Source: a virus
Strand: one strand, 5' to 3'
IMG/VR virus record: IMGVR_UViG_3300020159_000858
Location: 1-27,570 of that record
DNA: 27,570 nt
Shown: positions 6,830-27,288 of the stretch, piece after piece
Numbering within the stretch: the stretch's first letter is position 1
Layout of the letters: each line of letters opens with the position of its first letter
The notes under the pieces: generated by a model
Told to the model about the DNA's origin: nothing
The model's input: only the letters and a program-made list of their open reading frames with translations
The model's database searches: none
Program-made: the position numbers and the translations under genes

Positions 6830-6845
6830 TTTAAAGGAGACTTAA

Positions 6846-8057: not shown

Positions 8058-8081
8058 TCAGAGATTGTTCAAAAAGAACTC

Positions 8082-8107: not shown

Positions 8108-8135
8108 GTTGGCTGTTAATTATTCCACCTGCACC

Positions 8136-8143
8136 GGTAAATA
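8136..8143 (+). promoter_or_regulatory. Putative late promoter motif (GGTAAATA) for the fibre gene
   Basis: GGTAAATACAACCA (8136-8149) lies just after the terminator and 21 bases before the ATG at 8165, with AAAGGGA as ribosome binding site between. Nearly the same 14-mer precedes the collagen-like fibre gene at 16014. A promoter is expected here because the upstream transcript is terminated. Confidence 0.5.
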
Positions 8144-8164
8144 CAACCAAAGGGAACTCAAACC

Positions 8165-11014: not shown

Positions 11015-11023
11015 GGATCACAC

Positions 11024-11092
11024 ATGGCACTAACAATTGGCACTGGACTCACGCAAAACTGGAACGCCGACCGAGCACGATTTGGGCTGTAA
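11024..11092 (+). CDS. 22-codon mini-ORF, possible gene remnant
   Basis: The ORF reads MALTIGTGLTQNWNADRARF followed by Gly-Leu and TAA. AAGGAT at 11013-11018 gives a reasonable ribosome binding site overlapping the preceding stop codon. The N terminus looks like the start of a phage beta-structural protein, cut short just before an exact sigma70 promoter and cargo genes. It may be the remnant of a larger gene broken by insertion of the glycosyltransferase cassette, or a short translated peptide with no function. I do not recognise a homolog. Confidence 0.4.
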   Translation: MALTIGTGLTQNWNADRARFGL

Positions 11093-11095
11093 TAA

Positions 11096-11124
11096 TTGAC
11101 ACACCCAACACATCCTGTTATAAT
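11096..11124 (+). promoter_or_regulatory. Exact consensus sigma70 promoter with extended -10
   Basis: TTGACA (11096-11101), 17-base spacer, TATAAT (11119-11124), with TG one base upstream of the -10 (11116-11117, extended -10). This is a perfect match to the bacterial housekeeping consensus. The expected start at about 11131 is only 2 bases before the ATG at 11133, so the mRNA would be essentially leaderless. Confidence 0.85.
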
Positions 11125-11132
11125 TACTGGAT

Positions 11133-12140
11133 ATGTTTGAACACTACTGGGGAGTGACTCCCGGAGATAAAAATCACTGGAATACTGCGGTAAGCCATCG
11201 AGCCCAATTTGAATATTTTGGGTTAGAAAAATTGTCAAACCAATTGATATTTTTTTATGATGGTCATTTGCGATTACATCAAGGTCCAGAATACGCAGTT
11301 GAACTGATAACCAGTGCTGCACGACAAACAGGAAGACTTCCTGTGTTATGTCTTGATGGCAATCCTTGCAATGCCAATCTAATACATCAAGAATTATGTA
11401 AACATCTAGATGTTAAAGATTTTTTCATATTTCATCCCGATATACGTCCAATCCTTAGTGATCAACCTAATTTAGCACCCTGGCCCAGCTGGTGGTTCTT
11501 CCAACTGGTAGAACACAATCATCAAGCAAATAAACTAAAAAAGCATAGAATAAGTTTCTTATCTGGCAGTTCTAGATATCACCGAGTAAAATTGTTACAC
11601 GACATAAAACCCTATGTGACTGATCAGGATGTGATAATTGTAAATCAGATTGGCAACTTCAAAGATCGGTTACCAGCAGGCTGGTGGGATGAATTGCCTT
11701 GGACCAACCGACCAGAATTTTTTGATTATGTTGGCACCAGCGGATATCCTCCAAAGATGGAACAAAACAATCATCCGGCGTTTGCAGCTTGTGTGAATAT
11801 CAATGGAGAAACCAGTGATAATGATCAAGTGTTGCTGAGTGAAAAAACTTGGAAAGCATATCGCAGCGGATGTTTGGTTGTTAATTACGGACCAGAACAA
11901 GCCACGCAAACACTTAAAGATCTTGGATTTGCAATTTGGGACGAATACGATCAAGTGGGCACACACGAACACAAAGCTGATCTCATAGTCAAACTTATGC
12001 AGCGAGATGATATCGCAGACCTATATCAAAAGAATATAGAAATGGTCAAACACAATGTCGCTTGGTTCAACAATCCAGCAGCTATACAAAAAGTTACAGA
12101 AATGGCTGTTTTAAAACTAGAAAACTTGTTATCACCATGA
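11133..12140 (+). CDS. Glycosyltransferase-like protein (GT10-like C-terminal motif)
   Basis: This 335-residue protein contains LLSEKTWKAYRSGCLVVNYG (about residues 233-252), resembling the (S/T)EK(T/L)-x-x-A-x-x-(S/A)G-x-x-P/V motif of GT10 fucosyltransferase-like and related phage glycosyltransferases, which binds the nucleotide sugar. It is preceded by FLSGSSRYHRVKLL (about 143-156), like a Rossmann-type strand-turn. The protein is soluble, with no signal peptide or membrane segment. The ATG is the first possible start after an in-frame stop and has no Shine-Dalgarno; it lies immediately after a consensus sigma70 promoter. The 3' end overlaps the next gene by ATGA, so the two are one operon. 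Donor and acceptor are unknown. Confidence 0.6.
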   Translation: MFEHYWGVTPGDKNHWNTAVSHRAQFEYFGLEKLSNQLIFFYDGHLRLHQGPEYAVELITSAARQTGRLPVLCLDGNPCNANLIHQELCKHLDVKDFFIFHPDIRPILSDQPNLAPWPSWWFFQLVEHNHQANKLKKHRISFLSGSSRYHRVKLLHDIKPYVTDQDVIIVNQIGNFKDRLPAGWWDELPWTNRPEFFDYVGTSGYPPKMEQNNHPAFAACVNINGETSDNDQVLLSEKTWKAYRSGCLVVNYGPEQATQTLKDLGFAIWDEYDQVGTHEHKADLIVKLMQRDDIADLYQKNIEMVKHNVAWFNNPAAIQKVTEMAVLKLENLLSP

Positions 12141-13249
12141 CAACAAATTATTGGTTATACGCTGACCCTAATGATGGTCAATCCAGCGAAATTATAAACA
12201 TAATAAAAGAACAATTTGCACAAGCGGTATTTTGCAGCAACTTTGATCAATTACTGACTAATATTGACAATGATCAATCACATGTGGTGTTGTTAATACA
12301 ACCCACTGATAGCAATCGTGCAGAAAAAATAAAAGAAATTACGTGGAACATTCAAATAAAAACACTTACATCTAAACCTATACAATGTGTATGGTTTGTT
12401 GACGAACTTTTTACTATTGGTAGAATATTAAATTGGGTATCTACTTTTTCAAACTTATTGATTGTCACTCCAGGACAACATACTTTTGGAATGCTACACT
12501 ATCCGTGGCTAACTTGGCAACATTGGCTGCAAGATGCTGTAGATGTATACCAGCATCCAACCATGCAAAATTATATCAATACACTTGATCTTACCACACC
12601 TAAACCTCAGTTGTTTGATGCGTTGTTAGGAGGTGAAAGACCTTATAGAACTTTACTGCATGATTGGATTGAAGAAGATTCAGTGTTGTCACCTCAAACT
12701 ATTATGTCTTACTATGGCGGTAAAACCACTAGACCAAGAGAAATATTAGAGCCTGACATGATTGTGCCTGTACCAATAACACATTTTGCAATTCCATGTA
12801 AATTTCACGATATTGTTACTCGAACAGGACTAATACCACCGGTCAGTGTGTACCAACAAACTGCTTACTCGGTAGTTACTGAAACTAATGCTCAGCACAA
12901 CTACATATTTTTTACTGAAAAAATAGCCAGAATCATGGTCTGCAGACGATTGTTTATAGTATTGTCAAGCTACAAGTATCTACATTACCTTAGAGAATCA
13001 GGTTTTAGAACTTTTGGTCATATCATAAACGAAAGTTACGATTTAGAAGTAGATGATGTACGCCGGTGGAGAATGGCATTTGAACAGATGCAAGCACTAG
13101 CTGCAATGGATCAAAGTTGGGTGCTAGAACAAATACAACCCATAGTAGAACATAACTTACAAGTGTTGATGAACACTGATTGGCATAAAAAAATGTCGAT
13201 CGAAGTTAATAAAATTCTAACTGCAAGATTAAATTTTAAAAAATCCTAA
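12137..13249 (+). CDS. Glycosyltransferase-like protein, second of a pair
   Basis: At 370 residues when started at the ATG at 12137, which overlaps the preceding stop (ATGA); a longer frame from 12062 would run far into the previous gene and is rejected. The C-terminal part holds YIFFTEKIARIMVCRRLFIV (about residues 254-273) followed by YLHYLRESGFRTFGHIINES, a pattern found in many phage proteins in which FxTEKxxxPI leads to a GF.TF segment. It corresponds to the EKT motif of the upstream gene, so both may be distant relatives. No membrane segment is visible. The 3' end overlaps the convergent gene by 21 bases. A sugar-transfer role is inferred from motif and neighbours. Confidence 0.55.
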   Translation: MTTNYWLYADPNDGQSSEIINIIKEQFAQAVFCSNFDQLLTNIDNDQSHVVLLIQPTDSNRAEKIKEITWNIQIKTLTSKPIQCVWFVDELFTIGRILNWVSTFSNLLIVTPGQHTFGMLHYPWLTWQHWLQDAVDVYQHPTMQNYINTLDLTTPKPQLFDALLGGERPYRTLLHDWIEEDSVLSPQTIMSYYGGKTTRPREILEPDMIVPVPITHFAIPCKFHDIVTRTGLIPPVSVYQQTAYSVVTETNAQHNYIFFTEKIARIMVCRRLFIVLSSYKYLHYLRESGFRTFGHIINESYDLEVDDVRRWRMAFEQMQALAAMDQSWVLEQIQPIVEHNLQVLMNTDWHKKMSIEVNKILTARLNFKKS

Positions 13250-14380
13250 GAATTTGTGCATCTTGTTGATCACACTATCCCAGTCGCCCATCACTGGTTG
13301 ACGATATAGTCTGGCACTAGGATACCAAGGCGAATCATCACGCTTGAGCAACCAACGCCAGCAGTTACCATACGCATTCAACGGAATCCAAACAGGACGA
13401 CCCATTGCTCCTGCTAAGTGTGCATTAGCAGTATCAACTGAGATCACAAGATCCAAGTGATGCATAAGTCCTGCTGTGTCTGCAAAATTAGTGATAGTGC
13501 CTGGAAAACATTCACCACCGGCGGCTGTAATCACAGCTGATTCTTCTTCAGTGGAATCAACAGTCAAATTGATCCATTGATGTTCAGGATTACGACGGAT
13601 CAATTCGGCCATCTTTTCCACAGGCATGGCCTTGTGATTGTGTATCCATGAATCTTTTCTTCCTGCCCAACATACACCAATTCTCATGCGAGTTTTATGA
13701 CCTAATCTGTCAGCCCACTCTTTTGCTTTGGCAGGACTAGCAGCAACATATTGTAATTGATGTGCTAGATTGTCTAGTTTTAATCCTATCACTCGTGGTA
13801 TGCTCATCATTGGAATCCAGTAATCAAATTCGCCAAGGTCTTCACCAGATTCGTAAATGCCAACAATACTGTCGGACACAGTAGGAAACAATGCTTTAAC
13901 ACCTGCACTGAGAACTAGTTTTATTTTGGCTCCAGTACTAATTAAATTGGCTGAAAATCTTAAAAACTGAATCTGATCACCAAGTCCTTGCTCGCCTATT
14001 AACAGTATGATTTTATCTTTGAGGTCTTGTCCGGTCCATTCTGGTTGCGACAATTTTGGTTTGACACCAGCCATGTGTTCATAACGCCACCGTGCTTCAT
14101 AGTAAGGCCATCCACGTTCGAAGTCACCTTTGAGCAAGTAAGCCACAGCTAGATTGAATTCGGCAGTGACGTTGGCGGGATCAATCTCATGTGCAGCATG
14201 TAAGAATGGAATGGCACGCTCAGGATAGCCCATTTCTCTCAGCACATTGCCGTAGTTGTTGAAAGCAGCACCGTGATTGAAGTCCTGCCCAAATATTTGT
14301 GCATAGCAGTTCAATGCTTGGTCGGGTTGGTGATCAGCGCGATGTTGGTTGCCTTGCGCCAGTAGTTGTTCAGTGTTCAT
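13229..14380 (-). CDS. TPR protein with GT9/heptosyltransferase-like domain
   Basis: The preferred start is the ATG at 14380 (383 residues); a GTG at 14398 would add six residues and has no better ribosome binding site. The N-terminal 110 residues are tetratricopeptide repeats (GAAFNNYGNVLREMGYPERA, then AEFNLAVAYLLKGDFERGW). The rest resembles the GT-B fold of GT9: GEQGLGDQIQFLRF (about 129-142) is the N-domain loop, and VISVDTANAHLAGAMGRPVW (about 311-330) the C-domain donor site, followed by the WRWLLKRDDSPWYPS stretch. TPR-GT9 fusions are common beside bacterial flagellin or surface-glycan loci and in marine phages. It may add sugars to a virion or host surface protein. The gene is on the opposite strand to its neighbours. 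Confidence 0.8.
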   Translation of the reverse strand: MNTEQLLAQGNQHRADHQPDQALNCYAQIFGQDFNHGAAFNNYGNVLREMGYPERAIPFLHAAHEIDPANVTAEFNLAVAYLLKGDFERGWPYYEARWRYEHMAGVKPKLSQPEWTGQDLKDKIILLIGEQGLGDQIQFLRFSANLISTGAKIKLVLSAGVKALFPTVSDSIVGIYESGEDLGEFDYWIPMMSIPRVIGLKLDNLAHQLQYVAASPAKAKEWADRLGHKTRMRIGVCWAGRKDSWIHNHKAMPVEKMAELIRRNPEHQWINLTVDSTEEESAVITAAGGECFPGTITNFADTAGLMHHLDLVISVDTANAHLAGAMGRPVWIPLNAYGNCWRWLLKRDDSPWYPSARLYRQPVMGDWDSVINKMHKFLGFFKI

Positions 14381-14385
14381 ATAGA

Positions 14386-14393
14386 TATTTAAG
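14386..14393 (-). promoter_or_regulatory. Weak late-promoter-like motif (CTTAAATA)
   Basis: CTTAAATA on the minus strand lies 5 bases before the ATG at 14380. It differs from NATAAATA at one position and would again give a leaderless mRNA. Confidence 0.2.
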
Positions 14394-14427
14394 AACACTA
14401 GGTGTGAGACCCAAAATAAGTGTTCGC

Positions 14428-14435
14428 CATAAATA
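14428..14435 (+). promoter_or_regulatory. Putative T4-type late promoter (CATAAATA)
   Basis: CATAAATA lies in the divergent region, 88 bases before the ATG at 14524, with a sensible leader length. No upstream + strand promoter can read through from the opposing gene, so a promoter is needed here; this is the best candidate. Confidence 0.6.
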
Positions 14436-14443
14436 AGTCATGT

Positions 14444-14476
14444 ACGCAATACTGCGTCTTATGCGGTTTAACCCGC
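14444..14476 (+). other. Two small stem-loops in the 5' leader
   Basis: ACGCA-ATAC-TGCGT (14444-14457) and GCGG-TTTAAC-CCGC (14463-14476) lie between the late promoter motif and the ribosome binding site AAGGAG (14511-14516). They may stabilise the mRNA. Confidence 0.4.
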
Positions 14477-14523
14477 CGCGTAGAAGCTAGAACCTTCATC
14501 GGACTTCTTTAAGGAGAAAACAA

Positions 14524-15351
14524 ATGGGACGTCCTCTAAAAATACAAAAATTCAGTTTAAACACTGGCGTTGGTAGCCCTGGCGCAAACACCCCTGTGGA
14601 TCTTGCTTATCCACCATTCAGCGCACTTACCAATCCAGCATACAATCAGCCCACACAGACGCTGGACTCGGCCCAGTTCTTGGGTGTGGTAGGTGGATCG
14701 CCTCCTACCAGCCAGCCCAGTGCCACATACCCTGTGGTCACAGCATTTGTGAATATCACACTGGCCAATGGTTCATCTACCTTTGCCTTTTCCGGATCAT
14801 ACGCAGGCCAGATTATACGCCAAAAAGGCAGCCACAAATATCTAGTGGTATACACAGGTGATACCACTGCTGATGGCGCTTTCATTGTTGGGCAGTCATA
14901 TCAGATTGTTGCTCTTGGCACAACCAACTGGCAATCAGTGGGCACCGGAACAGGTACAGTTGCAGCAGGTGATATTTTCACAGCCACAGCAGCAGATGGT
15001 GGCGGCAACGGTACTGCATACCCAGTTGGCGTGTGTGTGTTGACCAATGATACTTCACCAGCAACAGGTCTCATGGCCATCGGCTACGAATCAGGCGACA
15101 GTGCAGCAGCCACAGCCAGCAATCTTACCAACAAGCGAGTGCGTGACTGGGTAGGAACTGCCGGTGACTACAGCGATGCCAACCTGGGTGAAGTCTCTTA
15201 CACTGATGAACTTTTCTATATTGCCAACTTCTTCACAGACGAAGGCGGTGTTGCACAGAGTGGATCAGAAACAGAAACTGCTACAGAAACAGTTAACGGA
15301 GCACCAGCAGGATTTATTCCGCTGGCAGTTATCAACAACGCCACTTCTTAA
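14524..15351 (+). CDS. Putative virion structural protein
   Basis: This 275-residue protein is rich in Gly, Thr, Ala and Ser and lacks basic clusters. Residues about 119-160 hold the pattern FIVGQSYQIVALGTTNWQSV followed by a G-x-x-F-x-AT segment and GNGTA. This short beta-module recurs in many marine phage structural proteins. The N terminus MGRPLKIQKF and the C-terminal VINNATS are unremarkable. A strong AAGGAG at 14511-14516 and an 88-base leader with a late promoter motif suggest high late expression. Position before the fibre gene suggests a virion surface or decoration protein, but no family is assigned with confidence. Confidence 0.75.
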   Translation: MGRPLKIQKFSLNTGVGSPGANTPVDLAYPPFSALTNPAYNQPTQTLDSAQFLGVVGGSPPTSQPSATYPVVTAFVNITLANGSSTFAFSGSYAGQIIRQKGSHKYLVVYTGDTTADGAFIVGQSYQIVALGTTNWQSVGTGTGTVAAGDIFTATAADGGGNGTAYPVGVCVLTNDTSPATGLMAIGYESGDSAAATASNLTNKRVRDWVGTAGDYSDANLGEVSYTDELFYIANFFTDEGGVAQSGSETETATETVNGAPAGFIPLAVINNATS

Positions 15352-15366
15352 AGTTTAGCAACCCTG

Positions 15367-15399
15367 AATCCTCTCAGATACATACTGAGAGGATTTTTT
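15367..15399 (+). terminator. Terminator hairpin containing the next gene's ribosome binding site
   Basis: AATCCTCTCAG (15367-15377) pairs perfectly over 11 bp with CTGAGAGGATT (15385-15395) around a 7-base loop; with the T run to 15399 it is a good rho-independent terminator. The 3' arm contains GAGAGG (15387-15392), the apparent Shine-Dalgarno for the ATG at 15400, so read-through mRNA would have it hidden. Confidence 0.85.
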
Positions 15400-15987
15400 A
15401 TGACCATAGCATTTGTATTGGGCAATGGACAAAGCCGAGTCGGCGTAGATCTAGTGCAACTTCAGCAACTGGGACCCATCTACGGCTGCAATGGGCTGTA
15501 CAGAGACTGGCAACCTGACTGCTTGGTGGCCACAGATCGTCCTATTGCTGAAGCTATACAACGCTCAGGATACAGCAAAAAACACAGATTTTACACCCGC
15601 AGACCCTTGCCTGATATGGGAGCCCAAGTTGTTCCTAGAAAATATCACGGCAACAGTTCTGGACCCATAGCCTGCGCTATTGCTGCTTTAGACGGGCACG
15701 ATCGCATTTATCTGTTGGGGTATGACATGGGACCTAGCCCGGCTATGAGATTCAACAATGTGTATGCTGGTACCGAATTTTACAAAAGTCCAGATGCAGC
15801 ACCCACATACACAGGAAATTGGATACGACAATTGGTCTCTGTAGCTCAAGATTTTTCTAAAACTCAATTTATCCGTGTTTGCGGACCCACTAGCGCCGAA
15901 GTCAAAGAGTTTAAAAATATTGGAAATTTTGATCACATAGACATCAAACTGTTCTGTCATCGGCTGGACTCCAACCACGGGCTATAG
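15400..15987 (+). CDS. DUF115/sialyltransferase-like glycan enzyme
   Basis: This 195-residue protein starts with FVLGNGQSRVGVDLVQLQQL (residues 5-24), then IYGCNGLYRDWQPDCLVATD (about 28-47) and HDRIYLLGYDMGPS (about 104-117). The G-N-G-x-S loop, the conserved GCNxLYRD and the PDxLVATD segment are shared by phage and bacterial proteins related to the DUF115 (motility accessory factor) and CST-type sialyltransferase families, which use nucleotide-activated sugars. It is shorter than most GT42 enzymes, so the link is by motif only. Its ATG directly follows a T tract, and its Shine-Dalgarno lies inside the terminator stem. It sits between two structural genes, fitting a role in decorating one of them or the host surface. 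Confidence 0.55.
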   Translation: MTIAFVLGNGQSRVGVDLVQLQQLGPIYGCNGLYRDWQPDCLVATDRPIAEAIQRSGYSKKHRFYTRRPLPDMGAQVVPRKYHGNSSGPIACAIAALDGHDRIYLLGYDMGPSPAMRFNNVYAGTEFYKSPDAAPTYTGNWIRQLVSVAQDFSKTQFIRVCGPTSAEVKEFKNIGNFDHIDIKLFCHRLDSNHGL

Positions 15988-16006
15988 GCTCGAAACGACT
16001 TTGATA

Positions 16007-16035
16007 AGAGTCTGGTAAATACAATCAGAGACTCT
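16007..16035 (+). other. Inverted repeat enclosing a late promoter motif
   Basis: AGAGTCT (16007-16013) and AGACTCT (16029-16035) form a 7-bp inverted repeat around GGTAAATACAATCAG, ending 4 bases before the ATG at 16040. It could be an operator-like site or an mRNA hairpin. Confidence 0.4.
16014..16021 (+). promoter_or_regulatory. Putative late promoter motif (GGTAAATA) for the collagen-like fibre
   Basis: GGTAAATACAATCA (16014-16027) matches the 14-mer before the 8165 fibre gene at 13 of 14 positions. The ATG at 16040 has no strong Shine-Dalgarno. Confidence 0.45.
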
Positions 16036-16039
16036 ACAA

Positions 16040-19000
16040 ATGACACAATACACCATTGACATCGGCGCGACACCAGATGACGGACAAGGTGATCCGTTAC
16101 GTACCGCGTTTGACTATACCAATTTAAACTTTGATCAGATTTTTGCAGCTGGTCCAGTGTTGAGTAATGTGGCCATTGCCAACAACACTATTCAAACCAT
16201 AAACAGCAATGGTAATCTGATACTAGCACCCAACGGAATTGGCAAAATACAAGCCAACGCCGCAGTGGTTCCCGGCTTGGATAATGTATATAATCTAGGT
16301 AGTCCAAGTCAACGGTTTAATTCAATCTATGTGGGCACCGGCGGACTAAACATAACTGATATTTTTGTTTCTGGTAATGTCTCGGCTAACAATATCAATT
16401 CTACTGGCATTGTGTCATCTGCTGGTAATGTAGTCAGCGGTGCTACTGTGTCGGGTACCACTTTATTAGTATCCAGTGCCACAGCCACAGGAAATATTAC
16501 TGCTAGTTATTTTATTGGTAACGGTAGTCAACTCACCGATACCCCACCAGGTGTACAAGGTATCCAAGGGGTACAGGGCACACAAGGTATCCAAGGAGTT
16601 ACAGGTGCTCAGGGCATCTATGGTACACAAGGCGTTCAAGGTGTTCAAGGAACAACAGGTACACAAGGCATCCAAGGAGTTACAGGTGCTCAGGGTATCT
16701 ATGGCACACAAGGCGTTCAAGGCGTTCAAGGAACAACAGGTACACAAGGCATCCAAGGCGTTCAAGGAACAACAGGTACACAAGGCATCCAAGGCGTTCA
16801 AGGAACAACAGGTACACAAGGTATCCAAGGCGTTCAAGGAACAACAGGTACACAAGGCATCCAAGGAGTTCAGGGCACACAAGGTACACAAGGCATCCAG
16901 GGTGAAACAGGTACACAAGGCACTCAAGGAGTTCAAGGTGAAACAGGTACACAAGGTAGCCAAGGTGAAACAGGTACGCAAGGTATCCAAGGCGAAATAG
17001 GCACACAAGGCGTCCAGGGTGAAATAGGCACACAAGGCATCCAGGGCGAAATAGGCACACAAGGCGTCCAAGGTGAAACAGGTACCCAAGGCATCCAAGG
17101 TGAAATTGGTACGCAAGGAGTTCAGGGCGTCCAGGGCGAAATAGGCACACAAGGCGTTCAAGGTGAAATTGGTACACAAGGCATTCAAGGCGTCCTTGGA
17201 GCACAGGGAGTTCAAGGTGTTCAAGGTGCTATTGGCACACAAGGAGTCCAAGGCGTACAAGGAGTCCAAGGCATACAAGGGTTACAAGGACTTGGAGATC
17301 GATACGAAACAACTAGTAGCACCAGTCTGACAATCAGCAATGCAACCAAGAGTCTAACTGTTAGCACAGGGTTAAATTACAGTGCTGGACAAAATACAAT
17401 TATTGCATATGATGGATCCAACTATATGCAAGGCAACACTGTGTCTTACGATGCGGGCACCGGTGCATTGGTTGTAGATGTTACTGTATCAGTTGGTGGC
17501 CCGGGCCCGTATTCTAGTTGGCAAGTAAATCTTTCAGGCGTTGAAGGACCTGCAGGAGCACAAGGTATCCAAGGCACACAAGGAGTTCAAGGCACACAAG
17601 GAGTTCAAGGCACACAAGGTGTACAGGGAGAAATTGGAGCACAAGGTGTTCAGGGTGAAATTGGAGCACAAGGTGTTCAGGGTGAAATTGGAGCACAAGG
17701 CATCCAAGGAACACAAGGCATCCAAGGTGAAATAGGTACACAAGGCATCCAGGGTGAAATTGGAGCACAAGGTATCCAAGGCGAAATAGGCGCCCAAGGT
17801 ATCCAAGGTGAAATTGGAGCACAAGGTGTTCAGGGTGAAATTGGAGCACAAGGTATCCAAGGCGAAATAGGCGCCCAAGGCATACAAGGTGAAATAGGCA
17901 CACAAGGTATCCAAGGCGAAATAGGCGCCCAAGGTATCCAAGGTGAAATAGGCACCCAAGGTATCCAAGGCGAAATAGGTACACAAGGCATACAAGGTGA
18001 AATAGGCACACAAGGTATCCAAGGCGAAATAGGTACACAAGGTATCCAAGGCGAAATAGGCACACAAGGTATCCAAGGTGAAATAGGCGCCCAAGGCATA
18101 CAAGGTGAAATAGGCACACAAGGCACAACAGGTACACAAGGCACACAAGGAGTTCAAGGTGGAATTGGTGGGCAAGGAGTCATTGGGTCTCAGGGAGTAC
18201 AAGGTACTCAGGGCATCCAGGGTATACTGGGCACTCAAGGTGTTCAAGGTATGCAAGGCGTTCAAGGTACAACGGGCATACAAGGTGAAACAGGTACACA
18301 AGGCATCCAAGGTGAAATAGGCACCCAAGGCATACAAGGCGAAATAGGTACACAAGGCATACAAGGCGAAATTGGTACACAAGGCGTTCAAGGAGAAATA
18401 GGCACCCAAGGTATCCAAGGTGAAACAGGTACACAAGGTATCCAAGGTGAAATTGGAGCACAAGGCGTTCAAGGAGAAATAGGCACCCAAGGTATCCAAG
18501 GTGAAACAGGTACACAAGGTATCCAAGGTGAAATTGGAGCACAAGGCATACAAGGAGAAATAGGCACCCAAGGTATCCAAGGCGAAATAGGCACCCAAGG
18601 CATCCAAGGTGAAATAGGCACACAAGGTATCCAAGGTGAAATAGGCACCCAAGGTATACAAGGTATTGTTGGCCCTGGTAATATCATAAACGCCACTGAT
18701 AATACCAGTACCACCACACTGTATCCTGTGATGGTTGGTGCTGCTGGCAGCGGGCAAGTGGCCAATGTCACTACCGGCGGATTTGTATTCAATGCAGCAA
18801 CCAACACATTGTCCGTAACAAGCAATGTCACCGCCAACAACGGCATGTTTACCACAATTGTAAACACAGCCAGCTTCACTGGCGGATTAGTAAGTGTCAC
18901 AGGCAATGTCACAGCTAATAATGTTTTAGCAACCACGATCAGCAACGCAGCCAGCTTCACTGGCGGACTTGTATCAGTTACAGGCAATGTCACTGCTAAT

Positions 19001-21628
19001 AATGGCATGTTTACCACGATTGTAAATACAGCCAGCTTTACTGGAACCATCGTATCAGTCACAGGCAATGCCACTGCTGGCAATGTCAACACCAATAGAG
19101 TTGTAGGCACTGCTCTTGCACTTTCCAGCACCGGCAATCTAAATCTAAACGCTGTTGGCGGAAATGTAGTTTTGAGTGCCAACACATACATCAACAATCT
19201 TGCCAGTCCTGCACAGAATGCAGATGCAGCAACCAAAGAGTATGTTGATAACATTGCCACAACCGGTATTACCTTCCACGAACAAGTTTATGCAGCCACA
19301 GTGACCACACTGGAGGTAGCTACCAGTGGTAACATAACTTATACACAACCCAACGGCGCAGGTAACGGCGTAGGTGCCACACTTACCACAACAGGCACAT
19401 ACAATCTCATCGATACTGCCAACATCCAGACTGTGGGTAGACGAGTATTGGTTCAAAATCAAGCCAATGCTGTTCAAAACGGTATCTATACCTATGCCAA
19501 CACCACCGCTATCGTTCGCTCCACAGATGCTGATGAATACGGAGCAAACAGCACAGTATCAATTAGTATCAACGACTACTTCTTTGTATCCAATGGTAAT
19601 GTCAATGCCGGTGCTGCGTTCATCGTAAATGCCCCTGCAGGAACAATCACATTTGGTACCAGCAACATCACTTTTGCTCAGTTCAGCAGCAGCCAAGTTT
19701 ACACAGCCAATACCGCTGCTGGTCTGACTTTGGTAGGAACTGTATTCAGCACCAAGGTTGACAGCACCACCACTGCATTTGATGCAGGTGGTAATATAAT
19801 CGTCAAGGCCAGTGCTAATCTAACCACACCCAACATTGGTGCTGCCACAGGTACATCATTAAGTGTCACAGGTAACATCTCAGCAACCGGCGGCACATTT
19901 GGATCAGGCAATATTAGCACAACTGGTAATGTTCAAGCTGGCTTCTTTGTTGGTGCTGTAGCAGCAACTACGGTCAGTGCATCGGGTAATGTCACTGCTA
20001 ACAATGGCATGTTTACTAACATTGTGAACGTGGCAAGTCACACAGGTACATTGGTAAGTGTAACAGGCAATATCACTGCTGCTGGAGCCACACTTGGTGC
20101 GGGCAATCTTTCCACCACTGGTAACATCAGTGCTGGTTATTACTTTGGTAACGGAGCATTGCTCACAGGTATAATCACTTCTGTCAGCAACATCAACAAC
20201 GGCACAAGTAATATCACAGTGGTCAGTTCGGGAGGTAATATTGCTGTGGGCATTGGCGGAACCAGCAATGTGGCTGTGTTTGCTACCACAGGTGAATATG
20301 TCACTGGATTGATCAGTGCTACAGGCAATGTGATTGCCGCTGGTGTAGCTGCATCGGGCAACATATCAGCTACCGGCAATGTCCAAGGTGGTAACGGTGT
20401 ATTCACCACCATAGTGAGTGCAGCAAGTCACACAGGTACATTGGTAAGTGTCACAGGCAATATAACAGCCAACAATGGCCAGTTTACTACGATAGTAAAC
20501 ACTGCCAGTTTCACTGGTGGATTAGTAAGTGTGACTGGTAATGTTACTGCCGGCAATGTAAACACCACAGTGGTCACCGGTGCCACAATGACTATCAGCA
20601 CTAATGCCGGCAATGCTAATATTGTATTCACACCAAATGGAACAGGCAATGTGAACACCGGTGCCAACATAAGCGTTACCGGTAATGTCAGAGCAGCTGG
20701 ATATACCTATGCTAACGGTGTGGCCGTAGCAGGATCTGGTGCTCAAGGTACAACAGGTACCCAGGGTATTACTGGAGCACAAGGTATTACCGGAACACAA
20801 GGTGCTGTAGGTACCCAAGGCGCTGTGGGCACCCAAGGTACAACTGGTGCACAAGGCGCAACTGGTGCACAAGGCGCAACAGGCGCAGGTGGCGGCACAG
20901 GAGCACAAGGCATAACCGGAACACAAGGCGTGCAAGGTCGTCAAGGCATAACAGGCGCACAAGGTGCTGTAGGTACCCAAGGCACAACCGGAGCACAAGG
21001 CATAACAGGCGCAGGTGGCGGCACAGGAGCACAAGGCGCAACAGGCGCAGGTGGCGGCACAGGAGCACAAGGCGCAACAGGCCCAAGCACTGCTATAAAT
21101 GCCACCAATGTTACAACTGGAACATTTTATCCTGTGATGGTGGCTGCTACTGGTAGCAATCAAACTCCGTCGGCAAACACAACCGCCTTGTCTTTTAACG
21201 CAGCCACAGGACGACTAACTACTACCTCCACCAACGCACTATATGCTGACTTGGCTGAAATGTATGCAGCTGATTCACCATACAATCCAGGAACAGTGTT
21301 GGTATTTGGTGGCAATCAAGAAGTCACTATAAGCACCACAAGCCATGATAATAAAGTAGCAGGTGTGGTATCTACTATACCTGCACACGTTATGAATTCT
21401 GGACTACAAGGAGAGTTTACTATAGAATTGGCATTGGTAGGCCGTGTTCCTGTAAGCGTGATTGGCAACATCTCTGCAGGTGATCGAGTTGTTACAAGCA
21501 ATCGAGCAGGTGTGGCAGAAGCTTTGGATATGGCGCTCTATCAACCAGGTGTGATAATTGGTAAAGCCTTGCAAAGCTACACAGGCAACGGTATTGGCGT
21601 GATTGAAGTGGTGGTGGGCAGATTATAA
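16040..21628 (+). CDS. Giant collagen-like fibre protein
   Basis: This 1862-residue protein probably forms a long trimeric virion fibre. Residues 1-170 are an N-terminal beta-domain (attachment), including [16 protein letters not shown]. Three unbroken Gly-X-Y blocks follow: residues 171-419 (83 triplets), 503-877 (125) and 1567-1680 (38). Between blocks 1 and 2 lies an insert of about 83 residues ([14 protein letters not shown] onward). Between blocks 2 and 3 lie 27-residue repeats ([20 protein letters not shown] type) and a tail-fibre module with AATKEYVD and [19 protein letters not shown] (about 1130-1160). The last 130 residues (from [20 protein letters not shown]) resemble a C-terminal domain of marine phage fibres. 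The collagen triplets have virtually no proline or lysine. Neighbouring sugar and side-chain enzymes may modify it. Confidence 0.9.
16550..17296 (+). repeat. Collagen-like block 1, 83 Gly-X-Y triplets
   Basis: Unbroken in-frame 9-base periodicity (triplets [15 protein letters not shown] and others) with larger 36-base and 27-base units. No proline or lysine within the block. Confidence 0.95.
17546..18670 (+). repeat. Collagen-like block 2, 125 Gly-X-Y triplets
   Basis: Mainly 27-base units encoding GEIGTQGIQ or GEIGAQGIQ; unbroken from GPA (residue 503) to GIV (residue 877). Proline occurs only in the first triplet. Confidence 0.95.
18827..19069 (+). repeat. Three tandem 81-bp coding repeats
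   Basis: Copies start at 18827, 18908 and 18989 with exact 81-base spacing, each encoding 27 residues like [20 protein letters not shown]. Further copies occur at 19991-20071 and, as a pair, at 20381-20542. Confidence 0.85.
20381..20542 (+). repeat. Two further tandem 81-bp repeats
   Basis: Units at 20381 and 20462 match the 18827-19069 family; the unit at 19991-20071 is a sixth, single copy. All are in frame. Confidence 0.75.
20738..21079 (+). repeat. Collagen-like block 3, 38 Gly-X-Y triplets
   Basis: Unbroken triplets of different flavour from blocks 1 and 2 (GAQ, GAT, GIT, GTT, GAV and a recurring GAGGGT pair), with no Glu; one Arg at GRQ. Confidence 0.9.
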
Positions 21629-21635
21629 TTTGGTC

Positions 21636-21650
21636 TGCCGTGGCACGGCA
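21636..21650 (+). other. Palindromic hairpin between fibre and fusion genes
   Basis: TGCCGTG-G-CACGGCA is a perfect palindrome with one central base. CATAAATG (21649-21656) overlaps its end and precedes the ATG at 21662. There is no T run, so it is not a standard terminator. Confidence 0.45.
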
Positions 21651-21656
21651 TAAATG
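21649..21656 (+). promoter_or_regulatory. Weak late-promoter-like motif (CATAAATG)
   Basis: One mismatch to NATAAATA; 5 bases before the ATG at 21662. The same 8-mer also occurs inside the 8165 gene near 9944, so specificity is poor. Confidence 0.2.
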
Positions 21657-21661
21657 TTAGT

Positions 21662-24286
21662 ATGACATTAAGCCAACAAATCTATCAAAATGGTCTGACC
21701 AAACCTGTGATCGCAGCAGGCGGCACTATACATCCGTTGATAATACCCGCAGAACTTACCAACGGAACTGGGTTAATGAATCCCAGCATCTTCATCGACG
21801 GCGATCGAATCCTAGTAAATCTGCGTCATGTGAACTACACACTTTGGCACAGTGAAAACAAAAAATTTGAACACAGATACGGCCCCTTGCAATATTTGCA
21901 CCCAGAAAACGATCACCATCTCCGAACTTGGAATTACTTGCTCACGATGAATTCGGATATGACCATAGCTACCACACAGGCTATAGACACATCCGCTCAT
22001 GATGTAGACCCAATCTGGACATTTGTGGGCCTAGAAGATGCCAGGATCCAACGCTGGAATGGTAGACTTTGGATCACCGGCGTGCGTAGAGATACTACCA
22101 CAAACGGTCAAGGACGCATGGAACTCAGTGAGATTTCAATAACCGATACTGGTGTGCGAGAGATCCTGCGTAAACGCATCCCTGCTCCGGGTGCTGATGA
22201 TACCTACTGCGAAAAAAACTGGATGCCTGTGCTGGATCAACCCTACACTTATGTAAAATGGGCCAATCCTACAGAAGTGGTTCGTTACGATCTTGACACC
22301 GGCACTACCACCATTATACATCTTGATCCAACTCAAATCATACCCGGTGTTCCAGATTTCCGTGGAGGTAGCCAAGTGATACCTTACGGCGACAACTATA
22401 TAGCCTTGATACACGAAGTCAATTTGTTCAAGAGCGAAGCTGGCGAAAAAGACGCTACCTACAAACATAGATTCCTAATGTGGGATAAGAATTGGAACAT
22501 GTTGGCCTACACGGATGCATTCAGTTTCATGAAAGCAGACATTGAATTCTGTACCGGTGCTGCTTGGTACAACAACGAATTACTGCTGACATTTGGATTC
22601 CAAGACAACGCTGCATTCATATTAAAGATGCCACGAGCATGTGTGGATCAATTTATGGCTGAGGCTAACAGTATTCCTCGAGTTCCTACTATGACCACAC
22701 TGGATGGTGTTGAACACGAGTTTGACTGGGGAGTGGCAGCTAACAACAAATGGTTCCATAGAACTATTATGCAAGAGATATTTGTGGATAATACATATCA
22801 ACGGTTCTTTGAAGTAAAACCCGGAGATGTGGTTGTAGATATTGGTGCCAGTGCTGGCCCATTTACATGGAGCATAGTAACAAAGCAACCCAGCAAAGTT
22901 ATCTGTCTCGAACCACACAAAAAACTCTACCCTACTTTGGTAAAAAATGTCAGCTATACCGGACTAGATGTTACCACTATAAACCGTGCCCTAGGGCATT
23001 CAGACGGATTGAACTATCTAGCAGGACTGTATGATGAAAACAAAGTGTCACACAGCGACGGCACTGATGGTATCGTGTTAGAGACTATCAAGTTTAGCAC
23101 ACTGGTACAACAACAGAAACTCACACACATAGACTTCCTCAAGATGGATTGTGAAGGCGGTGAATATGACTTCTTCACAGATGAAAATCGTGAATGGATA
23201 CACAACAATGTGCGTAAGATAGCTATGGAGATACATCTAGCCACTCCGGAGCAAAAAGAAAAATTCCGTAAATTCAGAGACACTTACTTGCGTGAATTTA
23301 CAAACTTCCATGCACTGAGTATTGACTATGTGGACATCAAATGGTCTGTGTTTGATGACTGGTTTGTTGATCATTACTCTGCTTTTATGTTGTACATCGA
23401 TAATCAGATAGCACCACGAGACAAGAAAAAATGGCAGCACTACCCCGCGCCCACACTTGAAATCACAACTATCATTCCTGAAAAAGGATGTGTGGTTGAT
23501 TGTGTGTTCTGCCCACAACGCACCCTGGAAGAAGTATACAAAGGCACCAGGATCTTGGCGTTGGATGACTACAAGAGCATGATCGACAAGGTGCCTACAG
23601 ATGTGCGTATCACTTTTGCTGGATTTACAGAGCCGTGGATGAACAAATACTGCACAGACATGGTTCTGTATGCACATGATCAAGGGCATCCTGTGAGCAT
23701 TTTTACCACAGGTGTGGGTGTGAGCATTGAAGATATGGAAGCCATAGTACATATACCATTTGCCGGCAACCCTAACGGCGGTTTCGTATTGCACTTGCCC
23801 GACGCAGAGATGTTGGCACGTCATCCCATCACTCCGGGTTATATCAAAACTCTGGAATGGTTCCGAGACAATCATCACAGAATAAAGAACTTTTCTAAAA
23901 TGAGTATGGGTGCCGAACTACATCCCAGTATCCGACACATTTTTGATTCAGCACCTAGTTATGCCATGTGGAGCAGAGCCGGCAACTTGTTCCGTGAAGC
24001 AGTGGCCAAACCACAACTGATCACACTACGTGATCGTTGGAACGCAATCACACACGAAGGACCAAAGACCTGTGGATGCGTAGAAGGATTGTATCACAAT
24101 GTGTTGCTGCCCAACGGAGATGTGAGTCTGTGCTGTATGGATTATGGCCTAGATCATATCATTGGAAACTTGCATGAACAGTCATATGAAGATGTGATTC
24201 CTCGAGATCAAACTTGCTTCACGCTGTGCAACTCTTGTGAAAATGCTACAGATCCTAAAGAAAAAGTCATAAACTTTGTAAAATAA
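21662..24286 (+). CDS. Beta-propeller / FkbM methyltransferase / radical SAM-SPASM fusion
   Basis: This 874-residue protein has three parts. Residues about 1-350 look like a five-bladed propeller of the glycosidase/phosphorylase type: GLEDARIQRWNGRLWITGVR (about 122-141), then EKNWMPV and a second PDFRGGSQVIPYGDNYIALI (about 228-247). Residues about 370-570 are an FkbM-type SAM methyltransferase with VVDIGASAGP (391-400) and FLKMDCEGGEYDF (Cys497). Residues about 595-874 are a radical SAM domain with Cys610, Cys614 and Cys617 in CX3CX2C spacing, and a SPASM-like tail with Cys804, 806, 824, 825, 852, 856 and 859. No signal peptide is seen. No good Shine-Dalgarno precedes the ATG. The next gene follows after one base. 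Substrate unknown; fibre or host glycan is inferred from context. Confidence 0.8.
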   Translation: MTLSQQIYQNGLTKPVIAAGGTIHPLIIPAELTNGTGLMNPSIFIDGDRILVNLRHVNYTLWHSENKKFEHRYGPLQYLHPENDHHLRTWNYLLTMNSDMTIATTQAIDTSAHDVDPIWTFVGLEDARIQRWNGRLWITGVRRDTTTNGQGRMELSEISITDTGVREILRKRIPAPGADDTYCEKNWMPVLDQPYTYVKWANPTEVVRYDLDTGTTTIIHLDPTQIIPGVPDFRGGSQVIPYGDNYIALIHEVNLFKSEAGEKDATYKHRFLMWDKNWNMLAYTDAFSFMKADIEFCTGAAWYNNELLLTFGFQDNAAFILKMPRACVDQFMAEANSIPRVPTMTTLDGVEHEFDWGVAANNKWFHRTIMQEIFVDNTYQRFFEVKPGDVVVDIGASAGPFTWSIVTKQPSKVICLEPHKKLYPTLVKNVSYTGLDVTTINRALGHSDGLNYLAGLYDENKVSHSDGTDGIVLETIKFSTLVQQQKLTHIDFLKMDCEGGEYDFFTDENREWIHNNVRKIAMEIHLATPEQKEKFRKFRDTYLREFTNFHALSIDYVDIKWSVFDDWFVDHYSAFMLYIDNQIAPRDKKKWQHYPAPTLEITTIIPEKGCVVDCVFCPQRTLEEVYKGTRILALDDYKSMIDKVPTDVRITFAGFTEPWMNKYCTDMVLYAHDQGHPVSIFTTGVGVSIEDMEAIVHIPFAGNPNGGFVLHLPDAEMLARHPITPGYIKTLEWFRDNHHRIKNFSKMSMGAELHPSIRHIFDSAPSYAMWSRAGNLFREAVAKPQLITLRDRWNAITHEGPKTCGCVEGLYHNVLLPNGDVSLCCMDYGLDHIIGNLHEQSYEDVIPRDQTCFTLCNSCENATDPKEKVINFVK

Positions 24287-24287
24287 C

Positions 24288-25472
24288 ATGAAATATCTAC
24301 ATCAGTATATTGAAAACTCTGAAGATCCTACTATCAACTTCTTGCTAGGTCAAGAATATGAAAACATAGGACAGACCGGTGCAGCAGTGAGTTTTTATCT
24401 ACGCACCGCAGAACGCAGCACCACTGATCAACAACAATACGAAGCACTCATGCGATGCTGTATCTGTTTGGAAAAACAAAAAACTCGAGACGACACTGAA
24501 AAAGGACTGCTGCTCAAAGCCATTGCATTGCTTTCAGATCGTCCTGAAGCATATTTCTTGTTGAGTAGATTATACGAAAAACGAAAAGAATGGCAGGAGA
24601 GTTATACCACAGCAGTGTTGGGATTGACCTATGGTAACTTTGATCTCACTCCGGTGATCACTGATCAGTATCCGGGCTATTGTGGATTGCTGTTCCAGAA
24701 AGGTGTGGCAAGCTGGCATGTGGGACTCACCGAACAAAGTCGTCAGATCATGGTACATCTGAAAGACAACTTTGCCATGCATCAGATTTATATAGATGCT
24801 ATCAATCACAACTTAAAGATCTGTGGTTTTCCTAAGTCCCCATGGGTAGAAACAAAGTCAGCACCTGCTGTGCATATTTCTCGAACCAGTTCTACTTTGA
24901 TTAACTCACAACCCAGACCAGGTGTATGGATTGTAGATAACTTTTATCAAAACCCTGATGCTATCAGGAAGATGGCATTGGAACAAGAATACGATCAAGG
25001 TGGCATTGGAAAGTATTACATAGGCAATCGCACTCGACAACAGTTCTTGTTTCCTGGGTTGAAAGAAGAATTTGAATACATCATGAATCGCCGGATTGAG
25101 AAGTGGGAAGAACACGGAATGAATGGTAGATTCCAAGTATGCAAAGAAGGTGAACCCCTGGTGTATCACTGCGATCCACAACGGTGGGCAGGCATGCTGT
25201 ATCTAACACCCGACGCACCTTATCAAACAGGCACATCTACCCATGCATTAAAAGGCACAGATGTGCGTCATCTTAGTCATCCGGACATAACAAAATGTTT
25301 CAGACCCGGCAGCCAGAACCTAGATAGAACTATATTTGAGCCAGTTGACAACTTTGGCAATGTATACAATCGGTTGATTATCTTCAATGCCGGATACTTG
25401 CATTCAGCCACAGACTACTTTGGATACAACAACGAAAACTGCCGATTGTGGCAGATGTTCTTCTTTGATTAG
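24288..25472 (+). CDS. TPR-like protein with 2OG-Fe(II) oxygenase domain (DUF6445-like)
   Basis: This 394-residue protein has TPR-like helices over about residues 1-190 (FLLGQEYENIGQTGAAVSFY; AYFLLSRLYEKRKEWQESY). The C-terminal half begins GVWIVDNFYQNPDAIRKMAL (about 213-232) and has the double-stranded beta-helix metal site: His294 and Asp296 in YHCDPQRWAGMLYLTPDAP, and distal His372 in NAGYLHSATDYFG, with Arg386 as candidate 2-oxoglutarate anchor. Enzymes of this type hydroxylate proteins or small molecules using Fe(II), O2 and 2-oxoglutarate. The gene begins one base after the propeller/FkbM/radical SAM gene, so the two are almost surely co-translated. Its 3' end overlaps the convergent Nudix gene by 4 bases. 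The substrate is unknown. Confidence 0.75.
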   Translation: MKYLHQYIENSEDPTINFLLGQEYENIGQTGAAVSFYLRTAERSTTDQQQYEALMRCCICLEKQKTRDDTEKGLLLKAIALLSDRPEAYFLLSRLYEKRKEWQESYTTAVLGLTYGNFDLTPVITDQYPGYCGLLFQKGVASWHVGLTEQSRQIMVHLKDNFAMHQIYIDAINHNLKICGFPKSPWVETKSAPAVHISRTSSTLINSQPRPGVWIVDNFYQNPDAIRKMALEQEYDQGGIGKYYIGNRTRQQFLFPGLKEEFEYIMNRRIEKWEEHGMNGRFQVCKEGEPLVYHCDPQRWAGMLYLTPDAPYQTGTSTHALKGTDVRHLSHPDITKCFRPGSQNLDRTIFEPVDNFGNVYNRLIIFNAGYLHSATDYFGYNNENCRLWQMFFFD

Positions 25473-25900
25473 ACGCAGGTAATTTCTAAACTTGTGATTT
25501 TCTTTTGGATAGCATCTAGGTTCACAGTGTTCCACAGTCCAGGATGCAATGGTCTGGGCCACCGCCCACTCTTTATCCAAGCATAACCCACATGTTCATA
25601 GTTGAGTTCAGGAATAAACTCATGATCCACTCTGCACCAGAATGTATGATATTCAAACCCACCATCAGACGATGTGAATTTTTCAATAGGTATCAGCTGC
25701 TGGTAATCGGGCATGCTGCCCAATTCTTCTGCACATTCACGTTCCACTGCTGAAATCAGTGTTTCAGTAGGCTCTACTTTGCCACCAGCAAGCCCCCAAG
25801 TGTCTGGATATTTTGAATCATTACGCAGTAGATACAGATAGCAGCGGGTTCTCACGCAGTAGAAACAAACCCCTACTGCTTTTACAATACCAGATTCCAT
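25469..25900 (-). CDS. Nudix hydrolase
   Basis: This 143-residue protein has a full Nudix box at residues 40-62: Gly40, Glu46, Arg54-Glu55, Glu58-Glu59, Gly61, with the last position Ser instead of a hydrophobic residue. WGLAGGKVEPTE precedes the catalytic helix. The family cleaves nucleoside diphosphates linked to another group (nucleotide sugars, dinucleotides, oxidised NTPs); the preceding YPDTWGLAGGK and C-terminal GYAWIKSGRWPRPLHPGLW fit the MutT/NTP-type. Its start overlaps the end of the gp15-like gene by 19 bases, so it is translationally coupled to a late structural gene. Substrate cannot be decided; nucleotide-sugar turnover would fit the neighbouring glycan genes. Confidence 0.9.
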   Translation of the reverse strand: MESGIVKAVGVCFYCVRTRCYLYLLRNDSKYPDTWGLAGGKVEPTETLISAVERECAEELGSMPDYQQLIPIEKFTSSDGGFEYHTFWCRVDHEFIPELNYEHVGYAWIKSGRWPRPLHPGLWNTVNLDAIQKKITSLEITCV

Positions 25901-27288
25901 GAGCCTCCGGTATACAACCCATCAATGCTTTTGACCCATTTAGTTCCATCCCAGAAGTATTGGATACCAGTGGTTAAATTTGTCACATATTGCGGACCTG
26001 CGGTACCTTGGCTTTGAAACGCCACTACCCACCTTGTTCCATCAAATTCAATAATATCATTAGCATTGGCAATCAATGGTTGTCCAATAGCGCCAACCCA
26101 GGCTATAGGATTGCTTGGATTGGCAGCATTACCGGTGCCTTCATTCAGCAAATATCGTTGTCCAGTTAGACTGCTATCTAACCCATCCCCTGGCCCAGCA
26201 GTCAACGGGTTAACCACAGCATCCACAGGACTTAAAGTATTTTGTGGTGCGGTGTCTGGATCAATATTGATAATCAACAATCGATCATCGGCAGGATTCA
26301 CAGCAACTGTGCCTATTATACTTGAATCAGGTGCCCAGGGATTATCCAAAGTGATGTAACTGATTCCTGGGCGTAACACACCGTACGCACCAATCACAGT
26401 GGGCCAAGTTATTTGAGGATTTTCTACTATAGGAAAAGTAAATGTATCCAAACTGATACGGTCTGGATTCACTGGTTGTGCAGGTTGTAACACTTGTAGC
26501 TGTCCATCCAACAACAACACTTGATATCCCCAGGGAGTGACTTTGACTCTAGTACCCAACAACAAATCATTGTCGGTAAGAGCGTTCACGGCATCACCTT
26601 GTGCATCAAATATGCTGGCAATCACACGTTCTACCACACCCAATTTCTTGATCTTGGCCGGACTACTGATCCAGATGGGCAAGCTAAAAGTCATGGTCAT
26701 GATGTCAATGGGATTTTCAGTACCCTGAGGAATACTTCTGCTGCTCCACCGCACATTGTCAAGATTACACACAGTGAGACTGGTCCAATCAATGTAGTTG
26801 TCTGTAGCTTGTATCTCTAGCGCAGGATTAAACAGCGTAGCAATCTGTTCAAACAACTGCATTTTTTGATTGGTATTTGATGTCCAAATATCCAAGTCTA
26901 TGGTCAGCTTGTAAGGCACAGGCATGAGTCTTTCAATTTGAAATGCATTGCCTTGTGTGGTTTCGTAGCTTTCTGTACCTGCGTCATATGTGCGTTGACG
27001 TACCATCATCTTGTTCACATGGTACGGCTCTTGCATGCGTTCTCGGTCATAGGTCAGTCCAGTGATGTGAAATGTCATCATTGGTGTGGCGTTTAGACTG
27101 TTGGCTGAGTTTTGATTCAAGATGGTCTGTGCTTGTCTGCTGGCATCACCATATCGTATGGGTACACGGATTAAATCACTTGTGCCTTGTTCGTTGCGTC
27201 CGTATTCGACTTCAAACAAGCTGAACATGCGAGTGAATTGCAGTAGATATCGACGTATCTGATCATCATTGAAAAACATCTGGGTCAT
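25882..27288 (-). CDS. 15: Tail sheath stabiliser, gp15-like, with C-terminal extension
   Basis: This 468-residue protein begins MTQMFFNDDQIRRYLLQFTR, and its first 230 residues resemble T4 gp15 (272 residues): an RRY helix, an IRVPIRYGDASRQ segment (about 41-53), and KLTIDLDIWTSNTNQKMQLF then LFNPALEIQATDN (about 127-160). In T4, gp15 caps the tail tube and sheath and joins the tail to the head. The last 200 or so residues have no T4 counterpart: a beta-rich part with Trp-containing repeats (EFDGTRWVVAF; FWDGTKWVKSIDG; GGSWNLVL). The ATG overlaps the upstream gene's stop (ATGA). It is on the opposite strand to the head genes. Confidence 0.7.
   Translation of the reverse strand: MTQMFFNDDQIRRYLLQFTRMFSLFEVEYGRNEQGTSDLIRVPIRYGDASRQAQTILNQNSANSLNATPMMTFHITGLTYDRERMQEPYHVNKMMVRQRTYDAGTESYETTQGNAFQIERLMPVPYKLTIDLDIWTSNTNQKMQLFEQIATLFNPALEIQATDNYIDWTSLTVCNLDNVRWSSRSIPQGTENPIDIMTMTFSLPIWISSPAKIKKLGVVERVIASIFDAQGDAVNALTDNDLLLGTRVKVTPWGYQVLLLDGQLQVLQPAQPVNPDRISLDTFTFPIVENPQITWPTVIGAYGVLRPGISYITLDNPWAPDSSIIGTVAVNPADDRLLIINIDPDTAPQNTLSPVDAVVNPLTAGPGDGLDSSLTGQRYLLNEGTGNAANPSNPIAWVGAIGQPLIANANDIIEFDGTRWVVAFQSQGTAGPQYVTNLTTGIQYFWDGTKWVKSIDGLYTGGSWNLVL

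Follow-up and report, generated by a model that had tools for sequence, protein, structure and literature searches.

A conserved propeller-TPR gene pair beside collagen-like fiber genes in phages, a candidate fiber-modification cassette

Gene content of the locus

The DNA analyzed here, called the window, is the whole of the IMG/VR virus record IMGVR_UViG_3300020159_000858 (27,570 bases). It carries T4-type structural genes, namely those for a gp20 portal, a prohead protease, a gp23 capsid protein, and a gp15-type sheath stabilizer. The nearest portal is the one of Atu_ph07, a jumbo phage of Agrobacterium (49%). The subject of this report is the stretch from 16040 to 25472, in which a gene for a collagen-like fiber is followed by a gene for a five-bladed propeller fused to two enzyme domains and by a gene for a tetratricopeptide repeat (TPR) protein with a 2-oxoglutarate (2OG) oxygenase-like module. 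This locus is a conserved cassette and not a chance cluster. Its core consists of the propeller and the TPR protein, and the FkbM, radical SAM, and 2OG domains are optional. The features of the stretch are the following.

16040..21628, + strand: collagen-like fiber of 1862 residues (Pfam Collagen, 2.7e-104), the proposed substrate
21662..22672, + strand: five-bladed propeller domain of the GH130/GT108 fold, about residues 1-337 of the fusion product encoded at 21662-24286 (predicted local distance difference test score, pLDDT, 93.6 in AlphaFold2); cassette core
22709..23360, + strand: FkbM methyltransferase domain, about residues 350-566 of the fusion (TIGR01444, 68.8 bits, cut-off 37.7)
23450..24286, + strand: radical SAM/SPASM domain, about residues 597-874 of the fusion (SPASM, 25.0 bits, cut-off 21.5)
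24288..24830, + strand: TPR module, almost always paired with the propeller
24900..25472, + strand: 2OG-Fe(II) oxygenase-like (DUF6445) module (29.0 bits, cut-off 24)

The enzyme domains of the fusion appear to be intact. The FkbM domain is also over the cut-off of PF05050 (40.8 vs 22.7 bits), and its methyltransferase motif, DIGASAGPF, is found at residue 393. The CX3CX2C radical SAM motif (C610-C617) and the SPASM cysteines are complete; the Radical_SAM model scores 19 bits, under its cut-off of 29.5. In phage DSL-LC02 this domain is 62% identical. The putative 2OG oxygenase has a metal site formed by H294xD296 and the distal H372 (numbered in the product of 24288-25472), which is invariant in three phages. 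Proteins named 'minor coat protein' in three cyanophage entries (NC_008296, NC_015287, and NC_031935) are homologous to this domain, and that annotation may mislead. The enzymes of the locus are predicted to be soluble, and no membrane segments were found in them.

Distribution of the propeller-TPR pair

A propeller search of IMG/VR gave at least 588 relatives, of which the best 80 loci were kept, and a radical SAM query gave 137. The sequence collections are fragmentary and phylogenetically uneven, and they were scanned by short peptide patterns. The co-occurrence counts given below are de-duplicated, with statistics that ignore kinship (no tree correction). A total of 102 propeller clusters were obtained. 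A TPR gene lies 3' of the propeller in 94 of the 98 that could be assessed. The two genes are separated by 300 bp or less in 87 clusters, and the median distance is -7 bp, so that an overlap is usual.

The other domains move around this pair. The window has propeller-FkbM-radical SAM followed by TPR-2OG. Synechococcus phage DSL-LC02 has three genes, for the propeller, for TPR-FkbM-radical SAM, and for 2OG, and these are flanked by a collagen-like gene and a tail-fiber gene. In S-SCSM2R, the propeller is followed by TPR, another FkbM-like domain, and 2OG in one gene. Thus, the same modules have been dealt differently between the two core genes. Among 90 downstream proteins of divergent cassettes were DUF6445 (16), GT2 (13), FkbM (12), radical SAM (8), GT17 (4), and GT25 (2), and nucleotide-sugar genes were present as single cases. 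Tandem propellers occur in a few contigs (L060 and L513, one of them a 413-kb record), either as a propeller followed by a TPR-propeller gene or as a propeller-TPR gene with a second propeller.

The propeller family is nearly restricted to viral sequence. A collection of 84,980 bacterial and archaeal species genomes contained only six propeller contigs, nearly all labelled as metagenome-assembled genomes (MAGs), and the propeller-TPR pair is retained in all six. One of them, L497, is plainly from a phage; its portal is of a different type (PF04860), and a collagen gene is adjacent. A bacterial origin of the propeller was rejected on these grounds. Contig L497 had been filed as a cyanobacterial MAG; along with its portal gene it has an S78 protease, a CHAP domain, and propeller-TPR-collagen (6086-8611), and binning contamination is likely. 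No paper describing this cassette was found among the open-licence PMC papers searched.

Linkage to collagen-like fibers

A collagen-like open reading frame (ORF) is present within 6 kb upstream of the propeller in 24 of 38 independent clusters, each with at least 6 kb of upstream sequence. Downstream, such an ORF was found in 2 of 29 clusters. The linkage is also seen from the side of the fiber. When contigs were chosen solely by the collagen pattern GTQG[IV]QG, a propeller was present in 18 of 50, as against 2 of 49 contigs chosen by 12 Gly-X-Y (GXY) repeats of any composition (Fisher 9e-5). Of the 20 propeller records found through collagen, 16 have a collagen ORF no more than about 7 kb away from the propeller. 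The phage lineage of the window, chosen by portal, was represented by 47 records; two of these have the propeller, both with very long collagen of the Thr/Gln type. Four lineage records have collagen and no propeller; the collagen is proline-rich in two and mixed in one, and in the fourth it is cut by the contig end. Proline-rich repeats (GPQGPQ, GPKGD), the opposite of the cassette-linked composition, are seen in the propeller-free lineage members G056 (10792-11243) and G075 (23906-24096).

A preliminary description of the window had proposed a surface-modification locus interleaved with fiber genes, and had pointed to co-occurrence across related genomes as the place where this idea could fail. 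It did not fail there. Many phage contigs have modification genes beside collagen-like fibers, and one such phage has unrelated structural genes; with controls, the association is beyond chance for the fiber, the propeller, and the TPR protein. This conserved core is narrower than the locus first outlined.

The genes could instead be passengers of a hypervariable fiber region with no common function. Fiber regions of T4-like phages are plastic, and two ORFs upstream of the fiber, gt1 and gt2, are rare orphans. However, the propeller-TPR order, the overlap, and the upstream collagen are conserved across divergent phages, with the controls at 2/47 and 2/49, and a mere passenger status is very improbable.

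Composition of the collagen repeats

The window fiber contains three GXY runs with a total of 747 residues, among which are 97 threonines, 3 prolines, and no lysine. The nearest upstream collagens of the 38 clusters are similar, with median values per triplet of 0.39 for Thr in X, 0.29 for Thr in Y, 0.009 for Pro in X, and 0 for Lys. In generic propeller-negative collagens the values are 0.17 for Pro in X and 0.03 for Thr in X. Even inside the GTQG-selected set, propeller-positive collagens have more Thr in X (0.25 vs 0.125, p=0.004) and less Pro in X (p=0.009). As Pro and Lys are nearly absent from the repeats, their classical hydroxylation is unlikely, and it was rejected on the repeat composition of the window fiber and the 38 clusters. 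The earlier suggestion that the phage hydroxylates its fiber is thus left without a substrate in the repeats, if hydroxylation is meant as in animals or mimivirus. Judging from the sequence, O-glycosylation of threonine is the best candidate modification.

Collagen-like proteins are modified in other systems. In known bacterial collagens, position X is mostly occupied by Pro and position Y by Thr, and BclA is a glycoprotein (PMC8968730). The BclA-type proteins share Thr-containing repeats with the phage fibers, and the sugar of BclA presumably supports the triple helix in the way hydroxyproline otherwise would (PMC8968730). They differ in that the phage fibers have Thr mainly in X and almost no Pro, and the enzymes are unrelated. 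Mimivirus, with L230 and a collagen glucosyltransferase, likewise has genes for collagen-like proteins and for their modification, which involves a 2OG oxygenase and the transfer of sugar (PMC9546862). There, however, lysine or hydroxylysine is modified by unrelated enzymes, and the phage repeats contain hardly any Pro and lack Lys. Mycobacteriophages also encode the glycosylation of their virion proteins (Freeman 2023, cited in PMC12619734). In that system, as far as the citing paper describes it, the C-termini of capsid and tail tube proteins are targeted, and no collagen fiber, propeller, or TPR cassette is mentioned.

Fold and candidate active site of the propeller

The AlphaFold2 model of the propeller, built on 54 sequences, is a five-bladed beta-propeller with a mean pLDDT of 93.6 and a predicted template modeling score (pTM) of 0.92. 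The best Foldseek matches in the PDB are GH130 mannoside phosphorylases, a mannoside synthase, and Leishmania GT108 mannosyltransferases, with a best E of 2e-9 and template modeling (TM) scores of about 0.5-0.58. A weak match to Pfam GH130 (PF04041) was found in 25 of 56 family members at E<=1, the best at 9.1e-5. The window propeller has no PF04041 match, members scanned individually reach 20.3 bits at most against a cut-off of 26, and the protein is not classed as a GH130 member. When the propeller profile was searched against PDB sequences, no meaningful match resulted.

The residues N40, R55, E125, D126, K185, and D315 are invariant in 54 of 54 propellers, and R128, R142, R143, R152, K199, R234, and H251 are also strictly invariant. 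The family has an invariant GLEDAR motif of the GxEDxR type. The first six residues occur in the same order as N74, R89, E141, D142, K199, and D363 of the GH130 enzyme BT3780, a mapping by motif order and by the span of the Pfam match over the motif and not by formal alignment, for which the profile-profile comparison with bacterial GH130 was too weak. The activity of BT3780 depends on E141, D142, K199, and D363 (PMC4599007). The phage propeller resembles GH130/GT108 in its fold, in a GxEDxR-type motif whose acidic residue would correspond to the essential D142 of BT3780, and, by this mapping, in its N/R/K/D order. It differs in its low identity (~10-14%), in being below the Pfam cut-off and nearly restricted to viruses, in its TPR partner, and in its fusion to FkbM and radical SAM domains.

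Structure matches among viral proteins (BFVD) are nearer, with a TM-score of about 0.75; uncharacterised proteins of pithoviruses are among them. Giant-virus proteins that share the fold are named alpha-1,3-fucosyltransferase, WcaK-like pyruvyl transferase, and LicD-type. The match spans only part of these longer proteins, so that their lengths and names suggest a fusion there as well. Such names are an independent association and favor a glycan role of the propeller. An entomopoxvirus and EsV-1 are also among the structure matches.

The propeller may have no catalytic role in the cassette. It could be an inactive scaffold for recognition only, the main function being hydroxylation or methylation of fiber parts outside the collagen by 2OG, FkbM, and radical SAM domains acting directly on the polypeptide. 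TPR proteins, radical SAM/SPASM enzymes, and 2OG enzymes often act on peptides. Yet these three enzyme domains are the optional ones, the propeller and TPR protein being near-constant; the repeats have no classical Pro/Lys sites; and the residues of the GH130-type motif are strictly invariant. A purely polypeptide-directed function is thus quite improbable.

The propeller might also be a virion-borne protein that binds or cleaves glycans, either as a GH130 hydrolase or in a lectin-like manner, with the other enzymes acting elsewhere. Its gene is located in the fiber region, five-bladed propellers can bind glycans, and hydrolases exist within GH130 (PMC4599007). However, the window propeller forms one protein with FkbM and radical SAM domains and lacks an attachment or fiber domain, the giant-virus proteins of the same fold carry glycosyltransferase-type names, and many of the invariant residues are basic (R142, R143, R152, K185, K199, R234, and H251). 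This role is considered improbable to a similar degree.

Proposed function of the cassette

On balance, it appears probable that 16040-25472 is a fiber-modification cassette in which the propeller puts sugar on the collagen-like fiber, the TPR protein serves as a tether, and the exchangeable domains decorate the product. The fiber would be produced in the host cytoplasm. There the propeller, distantly related to the GH130 phosphorylases and the GT108 mannosyltransferases, would act as a transferase and add a sugar, perhaps of the mannose type. The acceptor would most plausibly be the abundant threonines of the Gly-Thr-Gln and Gly-X-Thr repeats. The TPR protein, presumably translationally coupled, would join the fiber and the enzymes. 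The interchangeable domains (FkbM, radical SAM/SPASM, and 2OG oxygenase, with GT2, GT17, or GT25 in relatives) could then methylate, oxidize, or extend the glycan. The sugar coat may stabilize a collagen triple helix that has neither proline nor hydroxyproline, and/or may vary the exposed surface of the fiber as a form of camouflage.

Alternatively, the cassette could alter host surface glycans, such as the O-chain of lipopolysaccharide (LPS) or the capsule, during infection and so bring about superinfection exclusion. FkbM, GT2, and GT9 proteins are frequent in bacterial polysaccharide synthesis. Glycosyltransferases near the tail-fiber genes of pelagimyophages have been interpreted in this way (PMC7029224). 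The locus, however, has no membrane enzymes, flippase, or polyprenyl-dependent partners. Its TPR modules point to a protein as the substrate, and the cassette is associated with fiber genes of a single composition. The predicted solubility of the enzymes and the scarcity of the propeller family outside viral sequence make a substrate in the virion more plausible than host LPS. Remodeling of the host surface, which the preliminary description had offered as its other option, has found no specific support and is unlikely. Self-modification of the fiber is favored.

Several observations weigh against a sugar-transferring propeller dedicated to collagen. The window propeller is under the Pfam GH130 cut-off and its TM-scores are modest, so that activity could be lost or changed. 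In 14 of 38 clusters, the 6 kb upstream contain no collagen ORF, and 32 of 50 contigs with Thr-rich GTQG collagen have no propeller, many of these contigs being fragments. The link with composition partly follows phage lineage. A further point concerns GDP-mannose 4,6-dehydratase (GMD), for which strong matches were found in 7 of 14 propeller-positive and 0 of 10 propeller-negative records. In an independent set the figures are 0 of 18 with the propeller and 1 of 32 without it. GDP-mannose supply as a general correlate was not replicated and was rejected; it is kept as a feature of the lineage of the window.

In that lineage, the closest relative, a contig of 157 kb, encodes a GMD-like protein (398 bits, just under the cut-off of 415; the runner-up family scores 105 bits). 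It also has a fusion of a nucleotidyltransferase (cytidylyltransferase-like) and a mannose-6-phosphate isomerase cupin (L527:10571-11335) beside a GT8 gene. The earlier statement that genes for sugar donors are not seen, and that host sugars would be used, was therefore an artefact of window size.

A more far-reaching possibility, put forward tentatively and itself rather doubtful, is a virus-restricted modular glycosylation system for collagen-like fibers. It would consist of a GH130/GT108-fold transferase and a TPR adaptor, with glycosylated threonine replacing proline and hydroxyproline as the stabilizer of the helix, and the swappable FkbM, radical SAM, and 2OG domains would make the glycan diverse. 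The findings point to a widespread, uncharacterised enzyme pair in aquatic phages and offer a testable account of how stable triple helices could arise in phage collagen-like fibers almost without proline. A propeller with transferase activity would represent a new protein-acting branch of the GH130/GT108 clan, one whose fold also occurs in giant-virus proteins with glycan-enzyme names, and could possibly be a tool to glycosylate recombinant collagen. The host-range surfaces of phages with the cassette would then vary in glycan and not in sequence alone.

Neighboring genes

The genes on either side of the cassette are the following.

8165..11014, + strand: YadA-head-repeat fiber of 949 residues (Pfam YadA_head, 1.1e-5, three stretches), the upstream neighbor of the cassette
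11133..12140, + strand: orphan ORF gt1, syntenic in close relatives only
12137..13249, + strand: orphan ORF gt2, 370 residues from the ATG, homologous to gt1
13229..14398, - strand: TPR-GT9 (heptosyltransferase-type) gene (Glyco_transf_9, PF01075, 31.8 bits, cut-off 22), syntenic in L050, L500, and L502
14524..15351, + strand: u14, a protein of 275 residues, syntenic in L050, L500, and L502
15400..15987, + strand: sialyltransferase-like gene, 195 residues (phrog_4603, 1.3e-5; phrog_30607, 3.6e-37)
25469..25900, - strand: Nudix hydrolase (45.5 bits) with an intact Nudix box
25882..27288, - strand: gp15-type tail sheath stabilizer (T4-gp15_tss, 102 bits; phrog_11196, 4.7e-83), a marker of the phage lineage

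The GT9 gene, the collagen fiber, the propeller/FkbM/radical SAM fusion, the TPR-2OG gene, the Nudix gene, and the YadA-head fiber were all found where the preliminary description had placed them. The sialyltransferase/DUF115 gene was borne out in part; it matches the sialyltransferase-type PHROG 4603, and Pfam and NCBIfam gave no DUF115 match. This gene is present in 11 related loci, placed either upstream of the fiber or between the TPR and Nudix genes.

The block of gt1, gt2, GT9, u14, the sialyltransferase-like gene, and collagen is syntenic in the 157-kb relative (L500, the same contig as L109) and partially so in L050 and L502. Family scans of u14 gave no match, and gt1 and gt2, which the preliminary description had labelled GT-like, matched no family in domain scans. 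The two are homologous across their C-terminal halves by an iterative hidden Markov model search. One relative of gt1 was found (83%, in the 157-kb contig), and gt2 has relatives in L501 and L502. The AlphaFold2 model of gt2 is of low confidence, with a pLDDT of 45. With this model, and with a presence in the closest relatives only, gt1 and gt2 were rejected as conserved members of the cassette.

The Nudix gene had also been counted with the locus. It is instead a conserved neighbor of the gp15-type gene, which it overlaps here and in Paride-like phages, and it is missing from most divergent cassettes; it was rejected as a part of the cassette. The overlap of the two genes (25469-27288), shared with Paride and its relatives, possibly reflects translational coupling. 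Between the portal and prohead protease genes, the window encodes a very acidic protein rich in Met, Gly, and Asp (4220-5080), and short tandem DNA repeats are found within this region (4667-4748).

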